NCBI GenBank assembly: GCA_018240525.1
Contig: JAFEFN010000013.1
Location: 930,001-994,000, forward strand
Direction of reading: 5' to 3'
DNA from: Pseudomonadota bacterium
GTDB taxonomy: Bacteria; Pseudomonadota; Gammaproteobacteria; Steroidobacterales; Steroidobacteraceae
DNA: 64,000 bases
Part shown: positions 14,407-60,722 of the stretch, piece after piece
Position numbering within the stretch: position 1 is the stretch's first letter
Layout: the number at the start of each line of letters is the position of its first letter
Program-made: the position numbers and the translations under genes
The notes under the pieces: generated by a model
Databases searched by the model: none
Told to the model about the DNA's origin: nothing
What the model saw: only the letters and a program-made list of their open reading frames with translations

Positions 14407-14469
14407 ATGGTCATCCCCCGCAAGCGCGGCAGGAACGCCCCCGCGGCAGGTCTTCGACTTCTCGAATGA
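14407..14469 (+). CDS. possible 20-residue peptide
   Basis: ATG at 14407 follows AGGAG at a spacing of 8-9 bases, behind a candidate promoter. The 20-residue peptide is MVIPRKRGRNAPAAGLRLLE. It is basic and has no signal peptide or known motif. The stop lies four bases before the stem of the first large hairpin, an arrangement that recalls leader peptides or dual-function RNAs. Translation is unproven and the peptide matches nothing I recognise. Confidence 0.3.
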   Translation: MVIPRKRGRNAPAAGLRLLE

Positions 14470-14472
14470 ACG

Positions 14473-14535
14473 GAGCGGGAGACGGGGCCGCGCCTTCGAT
14501 CCCCCTCGGGCGCAGGCCTCGTCTCCTCTCCGCTC
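14473..14535 (+). repeat. tandem hairpin A with C-rich apex
   Basis: The arms pair as 6 bp (GAGCGG/CCGCTC), then 11 bp after a 4-base bulge, then 5 bp (GCGCC/GGCGC). They close the apical sequence TTCGATCCCCCTCG. The same 14-base apex recurs in hairpin B. No U-run follows, so a plain terminator is unlikely. The biological strand is uncertain; on the minus strand the loop would read GGGGGA. Confidence 0.65.
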
Positions 14536-14580
14536 GGCGCACGAGGCGGCCAGTCCACGGAAGGACTTCCGCGCCTGAAT

Positions 14581-14650
14581 GACCGGGGTGGGAGACGGGG
14601 CATCGCTTTCGATCCCCCTCGAGCCTTTGGCCCGTCTCCCGCCCCGGCTC
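14581..14650 (+). repeat. tandem hairpin B with the same C-rich apex
   Basis: A 17-bp stem (14583-14599 with 14631-14647, one G-U pair) encloses TCGA-TCCCCC-TCGA. The upstream flank (GAATGAnCGG), the stem core (GGGAGACGGGG) and the apex (TTCGATCCCCCTCG) all recur in hairpin A, about 108 bases away. The two are therefore diverged copies of one element. REP-type palindromes or RNA-domain duplication would both explain this. Confidence 0.65.
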
Positions 14651-14691
14651 ACCGCGACTGACGGTGGCGCGGCGGAGCCTTCGCGGGGCCC

Positions 14692-14733
14692 AAAAAAATG
14701 CGCCGCGAGGCGGGGGAAATCGCATCGCGGCGC
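14692..14733 (-). terminator. intrinsic terminator of the sigma-54-driven RNA
   Basis: On the minus strand a perfect 9-bp stem GCGCCGCGA/TCGCGGCGC encloses a 16-base loop and is followed by A then T7 (14698-14692). The T-run exists only for minus-strand transcription. It lies about 194 bases beyond the stop of the SPOR lipoprotein gene, so it could also end that message. Confidence 0.85.
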
Positions 14734-14768
14734 GCAGGAGCGAACACGGGGAAGTTGTTCGCAACTGA
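14692..14768 (-). ncRNA. candidate sigma-54-dependent small RNA with C-rich loops
   Basis: The predicted 77-nucleotide transcript starts near 14768, 12 bases after the GC of a consensus sigma-54 promoter, and ends in the T7 run. It folds into two hairpins. The first has a 7-bp stem, GCGAACA/TGTTCGC (14762-14740), with loop ACTTCCCCG. The second is the terminator, whose loop contains TTTCCCCCG. The linker contains TCCT. All three single-stranded segments could pair with G-rich Shine-Dalgarno regions. C-rich loops of this kind are known in Xanthomonas sX13, and sigma-54-driven sRNAs are known as Qrr, CrcZ and GlmY/Z. I recognise no Rfam family. Existence and role are inference from promoter plus terminator. 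Confidence 0.65.
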
Positions 14769-14777
14769 GCTAGTACA

Positions 14778-14795
14778 AAGCAAGGCCTGTGCCAG
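14778..14795 (-). promoter_or_regulatory. consensus sigma-54 (RpoN) promoter
   Basis: The minus strand reads CTGGCACAGGCCTTGCTT. TGGCAC and TTGC are spaced exactly as in the -24/-12 consensus (YTGGCACRnnnnTTGC), with GG at 14793-14792 and GC at 14781-14780. It is intergenic and points at a short structured transcript rather than a protein gene. Open-complex formation needs an enhancer-binding ATPase. The NtrX-like regulator in this window lacks the required motif. Confidence 0.8.
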
Positions 14796-14848
14796 CCGCA
14801 GAGGCTAATGAAAACAGCAAGTTAGATGGCCTCCCGGCCGCAGGGCAC

Positions 14849-14865
14849 GTGACCGGAATTGTCAC
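14849..14865. promoter_or_regulatory. inverted repeat upstream of the sigma-54 promoter
   Basis: GTGAC-N7-GTCAC lies about 60 bp upstream of the -24 element, a normal distance for a bacterial enhancer site. The matching activator is unknown. Half-sites of five bases can occur by chance in GC-rich DNA. Confidence 0.35.
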
Positions 14866-14926
14866 TTTGGGACCTTGGGCACACGAGGGTGCCGCTACGG
14901 GCCTGGGCGCAGGCGGCGCGGCCCGG

Positions 14927-15727
14927 TCAGCGCGGCAGGACCGGCACGCAGGCCTGCGCCTGCTCCTTCAGTGAATCGCACAGCGCACGCGCCTCGGCTT
15001 CGCCGGCGGTCGGTGTCTGCAGGCGGTACAGGGCGCCGGAGCTGGTGCTGGCGATGACGATGCGCGGGGACTTGCCCTGCAGCTGCGCGGCGAAGCGGCC
15101 CTGCAGGCGCTCCCACTCGCGGCCCGCGCTGGCCTGGCTGCCGAAGGCGCCGAGCTGGATCCCGTAGCCGCCGCCGACGCGGGTGGTGGCGATCGCGCGC
15201 GTCTCCTCGCTGGCCGGCGCCGGCTGCGCCTCATCTTCCCGCCGCGCGGCCAGGACTGCAGCTGCGGCAGGCACCGCCTCCTGCGCAGGGGCGGGCGTTG
15301 CGGCGGTGGCGGCCGGCGCGGCGGTGCCGGTGGCCAGCTGCAGCGCGCGCACGCCCACGCGGGCGGCCGACACCGGACCCTCGCGCGGCGCGTGCGGGGC
15401 GGAGCCGAGCGAAAATCCCTCGATGCGGATGCGCGCTTCCTCGGTCCATTTGCCGTGCGGATGCTCGGCGAGGAACCTGCGGTAGGCGTCCACCGTGCCG
15501 ATGCCGTCGGCGCGCTGCCACTCGCGGTCCTCGTCCAGCTGCGCGATGCGGGCCTGGGCCTGCCGGGCCAGCTCGCTGTCGGCGTGCTGCTCGAGGAAGT
15601 GGCGGTACGCCTCGGCGGTGTCGGCGGACTCGGCGGAATGCCAGTCCTGCTGCTCGCGGCTGCACCCGGCGGCCAGGGCCGTCAGCAGCGCGATAAGCAT
15701 CACCCGGGGTGCCCAGACTGTGATCAT
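14927..15727 (-). CDS. SPOR-domain lipoprotein
   Basis: 266 residues from ATG at 15727. The first 22 residues form a lipoprotein signal (MLIALLTALAAGC), so the mature protein starts at that Cys. Two repeats follow, AEAYRHFLEQHADSELARQAQARI and VDAYRRFLAEHPHGKWTEEARIRI (about residues 38-100), TPR-like outer-membrane lipoprotein units. A long Ala/Pro linker leads to a C-terminal SPOR domain (about 190-266, GGYGIQLGAFGSQASAGREWERL) that binds denuded septal peptidoglycan. A role at the division site or in envelope maintenance is likely. It is divergent from the bactofilin gene, which also fits cell-shape work. Confidence 0.85.
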   Translation of the reverse strand: MITVWAPRVMLIALLTALAAGCSREQQDWHSAESADTAEAYRHFLEQHADSELARQAQARIAQLDEDREWQRADGIGTVDAYRRFLAEHPHGKWTEEARIRIEGFSLGSAPHAPREGPVSAARVGVRALQLATGTAAPAATAATPAPAQEAVPAAAAVLAARREDEAQPAPASEETRAIATTRVGGGYGIQLGAFGSQASAGREWERLQGRFAAQLQGKSPRIVIASTSSGALYRLQTPTAGEAEARALCDSLKEQAQACVPVLPR

Positions 15728-15789
15728 GGTCGGCCTTTTACGGCTCTTTGGACACGTATTATGACTGGGCAGTTCCCCTGGAGCACCGG

Positions 15790-16182
15790 ATGAATGACAA
15801 GCGGCGGCTGATCGACCAGATCGGCGATTCACCGACCTTTGTCGCCGAGGGCGTCCGCCTGACGGGCGACCTGGAGACCCCCGGCCCGCTGGTGGTGTGC
15901 GGCACCCTGCGCGGGGATGGCCGTGTCGGGGGCACCCTGCACATGTCCGTCACGGCCCAGTGGGAGGGGGAGATCCACGCCGCGGCCGCCGTGATCGCCG
16001 GCCGGATCACCGGGCGGCTGGTCATCGAGGGCAAGCTGGAGGTGGCCGCCACCGCCGTGATCCGCGCCGACATCGACGCCCGCAACATCGCGGTCGCCAA
16101 GGGCGCCGTCATCGACGGCGTCGTCACCGTCACCAGCGGCCAGCCGGTCGTGCAGTTCGAGGAAAAGCGGCACGCGAAGTAA
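15790..16182 (+). CDS. bactofilin (polymer-forming cytoskeletal protein)
   Basis: 130 residues from ATG at 15790, preceded by GGAG at 7-8 bases. The central part is a right-handed beta-helix of short repeats (GPLVVCGTLRGDGRVGGTLHMS, then AAAAVIAGRITGRLVIEGKL), the DUF583 signature, with short charged ends. Bactofilins polymerise without nucleotide at the inner membrane face and position cell-wall enzymes. A TATTAT -10-like box at 15757-15762 could drive the gene. The divergent neighbour is a SPOR lipoprotein, so the pair may act together in envelope shape. Confidence 0.9.
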   Translation: MNDKRRLIDQIGDSPTFVAEGVRLTGDLETPGPLVVCGTLRGDGRVGGTLHMSVTAQWEGEIHAAAAVIAGRITGRLVIEGKLEVAATAVIRADIDARNIAVAKGAVIDGVVTVTSGQPVVQFEEKRHAK

Positions 16183-59354: not shown

Positions 59355-60722
59355 TCAGTCGTCGCTGATGTTGCGGAAGTCGACCCCGAGCGAGCGCAGC
59401 TTGCGGTACAGGTGGGTGCGCTCCATGCCGACCCGCTTGGCCAGCTGTCCCACCTTGCCGCTGCACAACAGCAGCTGCTGCTGCAGGTAGGCGCGCTCGA
59501 ACTGCTCGCGCGCCTCGCGCAGCGGCAGGGCGAGCAGGTCCTGCTTCACCAGCGGCTCATCCGGCGGGGTCTGCACGGCAAGCTCGCGCTCGATCTCCTC
59601 CAGGCGGATCTCCTCCGGGCCGCCGTGGATCAGCAGGCGGTGCACCAGGTGGCGCAGCTCTCGCACGTTGTCCGGCCAGGGATAGTTGCGCAGCCGGTTC
59701 TGCGCCGCGACGCTGAAGCGGCGGAACTGCAGCCCGTCGGTGTCGACCATGCGGTCGACCTGGTGGCGCAGCAGGTCGGGCACGTCCTCGGCGTACTCGC
59801 GCAGTGGCGGCACGCGCACGATGAGCGCATTGAGGTGGGCGAGCAGGTCCTGGCGCAGCACCGTCCCGCCGGCGCGCTGCTCGACGCCGGGCTGCGCCGA
59901 GGACAGCACGCGCGCGCGCAGCGGCACCGGCTCGCTCCCGCCCAGGCGCGTGAACTGCCCGGACTCGAACACCCCGACCAGCAGGCGCTGCACTCCCGGG
60001 GGCAGGTCATCGAGCTCGTGGATGAAGAGCGTGCCGCCGGCGGCCTCCTCGAGCACGCCGGCGACTTTCGTGCCATCGGGCAGCTCGCGCCCGAACAGGC
60101 GCGCCTCGGCATCCTCCTCGCGCAGCCCGCTGGCGATGAGCGGCACGAACGGCGCGGCGGCACGCGGGCCCTGCTCGTGCAGGTAGCGCGCGAAGGCCTC
60201 GCGCCCGGAGCCGGGCTCACCGATGAGCAGCACCGGCGAGGGGTGCGCGGCGATCTGCTGCAGCTCGGTGCGCAGCTGCTGCATCAGGCGGCTCTTGCCC
60301 ACTGGCACGGTGAGCGGCGAGCCCAGCAGGCGCCCCGACTGGCGGTGGCGCCGCCCGGCATCGAGCGCGCGCTCCACGGTGCGCAGCAGCTTGGCCAGCG
60401 ACAGCGGCTTCTCGACGAAGTCGAAGGCGCCCAGGCGCGTCGCCTCCACCGCGGTTTCGACCGTGCTGTGGCCGGACATCATGACGACCGGGCAGCCGTC
60501 GCTGGCCCCGGCGGACCACTCTCGCAGGAGCGTGATGCCATCGACGTCCGGCATCCAGATGTCCAGCAGCACCAGGTCCGGCACCTGGCGCGCGCGCGAG
60601 GCGCGTGCCTGGGCGGCGTTGGCGGCCACGTCGACCTCGTAGCCCTCCTCGGACAGGATCTCCTTGAGCAGCCCGCGGATGTCTGCTTCGTCGTCGACTA
60701 CGAGAATGTGTGAACTGCTCAT
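59355..60722 (-). CDS. ntrX: NtrX-like response regulator with degenerate sigma-54 domain
   Basis: 455 residues. The receiver domain (1-120) keeps Asp54 in VLLDIWMPDVDG. The central AAA+ domain (about 135-375) is present but altered. The P-loop reads GEPGSGREA with Arg174 for Lys, and the GAFTGA loop that contacts sigma-54 is absent after RLFGRELPDG. Walker B reads TLFIHELDD with His235 for Asp. The C-terminal Fis-type helix-turn-helix (GKVGQLAKRVGMERTHLYRKLRSLGV) is intact. It can bind DNA and be phosphorylated by NtrY, but ATP-driven sigma-54 activation looks impossible. A sigma-70 repressor or activator role is inferred. Confidence 0.9.
   Translation of the reverse strand: MSSSHILVVDDEADIRGLLKEILSEEGYEVDVAANAAQARASRARQVPDLVLLDIWMPDVDGITLLREWSAGASDGCPVVMMSGHSTVETAVEATRLGAFDFVEKPLSLAKLLRTVERALDAGRRHRQSGRLLGSPLTVPVGKSRLMQQLRTELQQIAAHPSPVLLIGEPGSGREAFARYLHEQGPRAAAPFVPLIASGLREEDAEARLFGRELPDGTKVAGVLEEAAGGTLFIHELDDLPPGVQRLLVGVFESGQFTRLGGSEPVPLRARVLSSAQPGVEQRAGGTVLRQDLLAHLNALIVRVPPLREYAEDVPDLLRHQVDRMVDTDGLQFRRFSVAAQNRLRNYPWPDNVRELRHLVHRLLIHGGPEEIRLEEIERELAVQTPPDEPLVKQDLLALPLREAREQFERAYLQQQLLLCSGKVGQLAKRVGMERTHLYRKLRSLGVDFRNISDD

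Follow-up and report, generated by a model that had tools for sequence, protein, structure and literature searches.

An exactly spaced -24/-12 element with no protein gene in front of it, found in the genome of what we take to be a soil-type bacterium, raises the question of which transcript it serves, which activator would control it and on what such a transcript might act. Working from sequence alone, the initial annotation had proposed a sigma-54-dependent small RNA with C-rich loops on the minus strand at 14795-14692 of the window, as the whole 64-kb stretch of DNA analysed is called here. The elements that it named and their coordinates all held as stated, and the features of the locus are as follows.

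14692 to 14768, minus strand: predicted ~77-nt small RNA, start at 14768-14766 and end in T7; covariance model R1 gives 95.9 bits at 14692-14762
14762 to 14740, minus strand: hairpin 1, 7 bp, GCGAACA-ACTTCCCCG-TGTTCGC, from fold and alignment
14755 to 14747, minus strand: loop of hairpin 1, ACUUCCCCG, from fold and alignment
14739 to 14734, minus strand: variable linker TCCTGC (UCCUGC in the RNA), 74% identity
14692 to 14733, minus strand: terminator hairpin with a 9-bp outer stem, a 3-bp inner helix, a C-rich loop and T7
14794 to 14779, minus strand: -24/-12 sigma-54 promoter TGGCACAGGCCTTGCT, an exact match to the consensus TGGCACRNNNNTTGCW
14812 to 14824, minus strand: IHF-type site TAACTTGCTGTTT, between the UAS and the promoter
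14850 to 14873, minus strand (that of the small RNA): enhancer (UAS) GTCCCAAAGTGACAATTCCGGTCA, which reads TGACCGGAATTGTCACTTTGGGAC on the plus strand
14927 to 15832, minus strand: SPOR-domain protein gene (PF05036), upstream of the small RNA on the same strand, a conserved neighbour; start codon uncertain
15748 to 16182, plus strand: bactofilin gene (PF04519), divergent to the SPOR gene; an ATG near 15790 is its likely start

The promoter is the sole exact match to TGGCACRNNNNTTGCW within the 64-kb window and is conserved in orthologs, and the claim of a -24/-12 element with exact spacing held; shuffled sequence yields about one match even with one mismatch permitted. The predicted transcription start lies at 14768, and a search for a sigma-70 promoter near the small RNA found none. 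Together with the IHF-type site, the enhancer, whose architecture is GTCC-N5-TGAC-N7-GTCA, completes a sigma-54 control region upstream of the small RNA, and rpoN is encoded in the genome (PF04552, E 6.7e-67). The TGAC-N7-GTCA core is kept in 23 of 23 small RNA promoters, ~55-66 bases upstream of the -24 box, and the IHF-type pattern YAAN4(T/C)TG(A/T) is present in 18 of 23 homologs as compared to 3% of shuffled sequences, beginning in those 18 at 30-32 nt upstream of the TGG of the -24 box. A scan of 246 genomes of the order recovered the enhancer and promoter pattern in 46 genomes belonging to 24 genera, and very few matches were obtained with the reversed control pattern.

The predicted RNA of 77-79 nt has a fold energy of -37.4 kcal/mol (z = -6.6), which was equalled by none of 200 shuffles. 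CUUCCCC is present in the loop of hairpin 1, and the loop of the terminator hairpin, whose stem GCGCCGCGA/TCGCGGCGC spans 14733-14700 and is followed by T7 at 14698-14692 on the minus strand, carries UUUCCCCC. The terminator loop as first described held only in part, for the predicted fold adds a 3-bp GCG/CGC helix within it; the apical loop is therefore predicted to be AUUUCCCC, with the final C of the C-run base-paired. An ORF overlapping the RNA (14411-14764, minus strand, 117 aa, TTG start) was considered and rejected as non-coding, since 1-nt indels in loop 1 and the linker disrupt all frames among relatives, and on the same grounds a protein-coding reading of the small RNA is excluded.

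A DNA search covering 60 related genomes identified homologs of the small RNA unit in 19 same-genus genomes including the window's own (BLAST, E 3e-55 to 1e-7), and when GTDB contigs were searched by pattern, the unit also turned up in records titled Gammaproteobacteria, Proteobacteria or Steroidobacteraceae, the taxonomy being that of the record titles. The initial annotation would have been refuted had neither the -24/-12 bases nor the stems been conserved in relatives, which is not the case. The -24/-12 is kept throughout the 19 same-genus genomes and in all homologs with a readable promoter, with the four bases between the boxes free to vary. Aligning 27 sequences shows little or no change in the CCC(C) of loop 1, the TTCCCC of loop 2 and the stems, the last of which are unchanged or still pairing in nearly all sequences; rare stem changes mostly preserve pairing, and with so little variation in the stems there is only slight covariation. 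Compared with the window, stem 1 is 97-99% identical and loop 1 92%, and the linker, the least conserved part, only 74%. The suggested role of the linker TCCT in pairing is thus unsupported. For the SPOR protein encoded next to the RNA, identity across the same genomes is mostly ~46-60%; several near-complete same-genus genomes contain no match to model R1. At the sequence level a real, conserved, sigma-54-driven small RNA is shown, and the comparative data support the claim of such an RNA with C-rich loops; its transcription is inferred, there being no transcript data. An extra leader of 30-100 nt lies between start and hairpin 1 in L007, L008, L010, L012, L014, L017-L019, L105, L119 and L127, with an additional hairpin, such as GCGGTGATGATCACCGC, ahead of hairpin 1 in several cases.

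As for the activator, in one locus (L098) the enhancer and -24/-12 unit drives a type IV pilin, and two further units adjoin pilins divergently, because of which pilin genes were collected from 30 genomes of the order and their promoters inspected. In nearly all of them the -24/-12 is preceded by TGAC-N7-GTCA-N5-TGAC, which is the small RNA enhancer inverted: TGACCGGAATTGTCACTTTGGGAC is the same motif as TGACGCGCCGGGTCACTTTGTGAC of pilA, and in this genome the CTTTG between the half-sites is identical. The inverted enhancer stands upstream of the pilA -24/-12 in 21 training promoters across the order, and a matrix derived only from these 21 pilA enhancers scores 22.5 bits at the small RNA site, with the runner-up in the window at 4.9. 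This test is not fully blind, since the training sites were chosen by the TGAC-N7-GTCA core first seen at the small RNA; the expected chance of such a core in a random 170-base stretch is well below 1%, and the choice took no account of the third half-site of the pilA enhancer. The full enhancer has four exact matches in the genome, with a -24/-12 also present only at pilA and the small RNA. PilS, PilR (with a GSFTGA loop) and two pilins are encoded adjacently in this genome, and the pilA enhancer lies directly after the pilR stop codon. The sharing of the control region with pilA is established by the sequence, as are the promoter, the IHF-type site, the enhancer and the structure and conservation of the RNA. 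PilR is the standard activator of pilA (PMC6058289), and it is the best-supported activator here because the enhancer is common to pilA and the small RNA and the pilA site follows pilR immediately. Co-regulation of the small RNA with pilA, inferred from the shared sites, is almost certain; PilR, of the PilS-PilR system, is very likely its activator, an inference from shared sites and gene order without binding data. This enhancer pointing to PilR, like the 3'-UTR relatives in sister genera described below, goes beyond what was initially annotated.

Another enhancer-binding protein (GlrR, PrsR, NtrC or one of two receiver-less ones) could instead be the activator. At least six enhancer-binding proteins are encoded in the genome, and GlrR drives the sRNA GlmY in enterics. 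Against this stand the identity of the enhancer with that of pilA right after pilR, the GTCT/TGTC-type elements described as PilR sites in Pseudomonas (PMC6058289), and the absence from the genome of any sigma-54 promoter, besides those of pilA and the small RNA, with an exact enhancer match, and we regard this alternative as unlikely. GlmY-type (GlrR) and NrsZ-type (NtrC) activators were considered initially, since GlrR and NtrC are encoded, and were dropped once pilA and the small RNA were seen to have an identical enhancer. Elsewhere in the window, at ~59823-60302 on the minus strand, an NtrX-like regulator with a weak AAA+ match adjoins an NtrY-like kinase.

Among known RNAs, no Rfam family was matched in the window at the gathering threshold. 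The best Rfam match of the small RNA is sX13 of Xanthomonas (RF02232), at full length with 27.1 bits and E 0.002-0.003, and the possibility must be considered that it is a divergent representative of sX13 or of the related ar7 group of Alphaproteobacteria, since the RNA also shares with sX13 its C-rich loop design: both are short and strongly structured, with CCCC/CCCCC hairpin loops in sX13 (PMC3771888). However, the score is below the gathering score of 50, and the model match partly covers promoter DNA rather than RNA. sX13 has three hairpins (4C, 4C and 5C loops) and its gene lies downstream of polA, whereas the 77-nt RNA has two C-rich-loop hairpins and is found at the SPOR/bactofilin locus on contig C4 with polA on contig C8. 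It is also under sigma-54/PilR-type control, whereas two sX13 genes scoring above the cut-off (L185, 117 bits; L186, 103 bits) have neither a -24/-12 nor an enhancer upstream. Membership is therefore very unlikely, and the claimed likeness to sX13 held as a design, not as a family relationship; the weak Rfam matches (sX13, ar7, ncS54 and microRNA models) were set aside as shared design or chance.

Precedents for RpoN-dependent sRNAs under NtrC are NrsZ (PMC8395346) and GlnZ (PMC9731577). NrsZ of Pseudomonas is likewise sigma-54-dependent, controlled by a two-component enhancer-binding protein and linked to surface motility, but is ~226 nt long, NtrC-controlled and located beside ntrC, whereas the 77-nt RNA has the PilR-type enhancer of pilA, with ntrC on another contig (C3). 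GlnZ resembles the form found in sister genera in that this sRNA depends on RpoN and is linked to the 3' UTR of glnA, a gene of the regulon; it differs in belonging to the NtrC regulon and in being processed from a coding mRNA, while the RNA studied here stands alone without an ORF. GlmY/GlmZ, CrcZ and Qrr1-4 are sigma-54-dependent sRNAs too, with other activators and another mode of action, and the GlmY/GlmZ, CrcZ and Qrr models of Rfam did not match the small RNA up to E 5, in agreement with the initial claim that it is none of these.

We consider it likely that 14768-14692 on the minus strand is a stand-alone, sigma-54-dependent regulatory RNA of the PilS-PilR regulon, PilR binding, transcription, action in trans and repression all being inferred. 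In the proposed mechanism, phosphorylated PilR would bind the GTCC-N5-TGAC-N7-GTCA enhancer at 14873-14850, IHF would bend the DNA at 14824-14812, and sigma-54 RNA polymerase would start at ~14768 and stop at the T7. Through its exposed C-rich loops the RNA would then, most likely, pair with one or more mRNAs in G-rich regions at their translation starts, repressing them, so that target levels would change upon type IV pilus induction. In sX13, C-rich loops bring about Hfq-independent repression of mRNAs that have G-rich motifs close to the start codon (PMC3771888), and by this analogy CUUCCCC(C) may pair with start regions of the CGGGG(G)AAG type. Repression as the mode of action is likely, though unproven, and the initially claimed pairing with GGGGA- or AGGA-type ribosome sites remains an inference. 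Duplex energies of the loops at pilA leaders and nearby start regions were within background, no better than with random sequence; no target was identified among these, nor does pilA stand out as one.

PilS-PilR is a sensor of the pilin pool that drives pilA; little is known about its other outputs. No PilR-controlled sRNA was found in the open-access literature searched, which is weak evidence, as most subscription journals lay outside the search. If the proposal is true, the PilR regulon gains a non-coding arm; if it is confirmed, pilin production would always be accompanied by a fixed dose of a C-rich-loop RNA, coupling pilus control to the translation of genes with G-rich starts.

Bactofilin is a conserved neighbour of the enhancer/promoter/RNA unit across families f1, f4 and f6. 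Behind the small RNA there is a second conserved stem-loop with a long paired stem, duplicated in the window (14470-14535 and 14583-14650) and present as a single copy in L063, L067, L070, L071, L081, L040 and L044; its invariant loop is CGAUCCCCCUCG on the plus strand and CGAGGGGGAUCG on the minus strand, that of the small RNA, and changes occur on both sides at six stem pairs. Which strand is transcribed is unknown; if it is that of the small RNA, this loop could pair with the C-runs of the small RNA. Instead of pairing with mRNAs, the RNA might serve as a decoy that captures an RNA-binding protein, or another RNA such as this GGGGGA-loop element. The conserved stem-loop directly behind the RNA in several relatives speaks for a decoy; its absence there in many relatives and the unknown transcribed strand speak against it, and we hold this to be improbable compared with mRNA pairing.

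Where the RNA came from is suggested by matches in other genera. Of the order's 246 genomes, 42 had a match to model R1 at E <= 0.01; outside the genus these matches ranged from strong to marginal, many being weak. In several other genera the R1 match lies 240-390 bases past the promoter, just after a small ORF, which encodes a protein of 83-88 aa in family f10 and a related one of 96 aa in L118 (together small-protein family A), and the terminator of the f10 mRNA (TTCGCTCTGGCGCCGCGGTCAGCTTCCCCC) is nearly identical to that of a stand-alone RNA in L120. In sister genera the same unit thus drives small-protein mRNAs with homologous C-rich hairpins at their 3' ends, at the same bactofilin-linked locus; part of g1 has long leaders without an evident ORF, and the window has the bare RNA. 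The simplest history would be loss of the ORF, in the lineage of the window, from an mRNA that carried C-rich hairpins at its 3' end; the small RNA would then probably descend from what was once the 3' UTR of a small-protein mRNA driven by PilR. That the change went from mRNA to bare RNA is inferred because the small-protein form is the more widespread, and does not rest on a tree. A bolder reading, towards which we remain slightly more sceptical than favourable, is that of an ancient bactofilin-linked PilR/sigma-54 locus passing from a small-protein mRNA to a stand-alone regulatory RNA, with the ORF lost and the C-rich 3'-UTR hairpins retained under an unchanged promoter. Should this be confirmed, the series seen across the order, with small-protein mRNAs at one end and the bare RNA at the other, would be a clean example of how a 3' UTR becomes a stand-alone sRNA with its promoter unchanged.

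The same relatives allow a further objection, namely that the PilR/sigma-54-driven transcript is real but represents no more than the promoter and terminator that a lost small-protein gene left behind, with no function in trans. This is supported by the use of the same unit for small ORFs with similar terminators in sister genera and by the lack of a target among pilA leaders and nearby starts. However, hairpin 1 and both C-runs are better conserved than the linker and leader, even where leaders differ by 0-80 nt, and an unpaired CUUCCCC would not stay identical while the neighbouring protein diverges to ~50% identity, which makes a mere remnant unlikely and leaves a regulatory RNA as the preferred reading.

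C-rich loops are not universal, since the C-runs are gone from both loops of the RNA-like element at L058 and the terminator loop in L110-L113 is no longer C-rich; the loss in L058 possibly reflects a change of target. L058 (family f4, 1678-1741), which lies beside bactofilin, otherwise shares the enhancer, the promoter and the arrangement of two hairpins, here with UCCUU as the linker. In L109-L113 a 67-aa ORF (MSTRTLTLLMPALRPSDCVRHWPVALLLAA..., clear in L110-L113) lies between the promoter and sRNA-like hairpins; in this genus (g25) substitutions number 75, 51 and 164 by codon position, and the ORF is probably translated, because they fall mostly at third positions.

Small proteins of family A (~75-96 aa), ending in GCFRRGKPIxDPxxxEVIGYEMEEV, are encoded downstream of a -24/-12 with the PilR-type enhancer in several families (L059, L061, L062, L095-L097, L099-L102, L118, L121-L124, L128-L131 and L133). 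The members tested had no Pfam or NCBIfam match, and with no Pfam match among them they appear to constitute an undescribed family. A second small-protein family (~92-95 aa), of which one member tested had no Pfam match, has the same enhancer/promoter unit in L082, L083, L094, L103, L104 and L132, and its unit is divergent to a pilin gene in G091 and G139.
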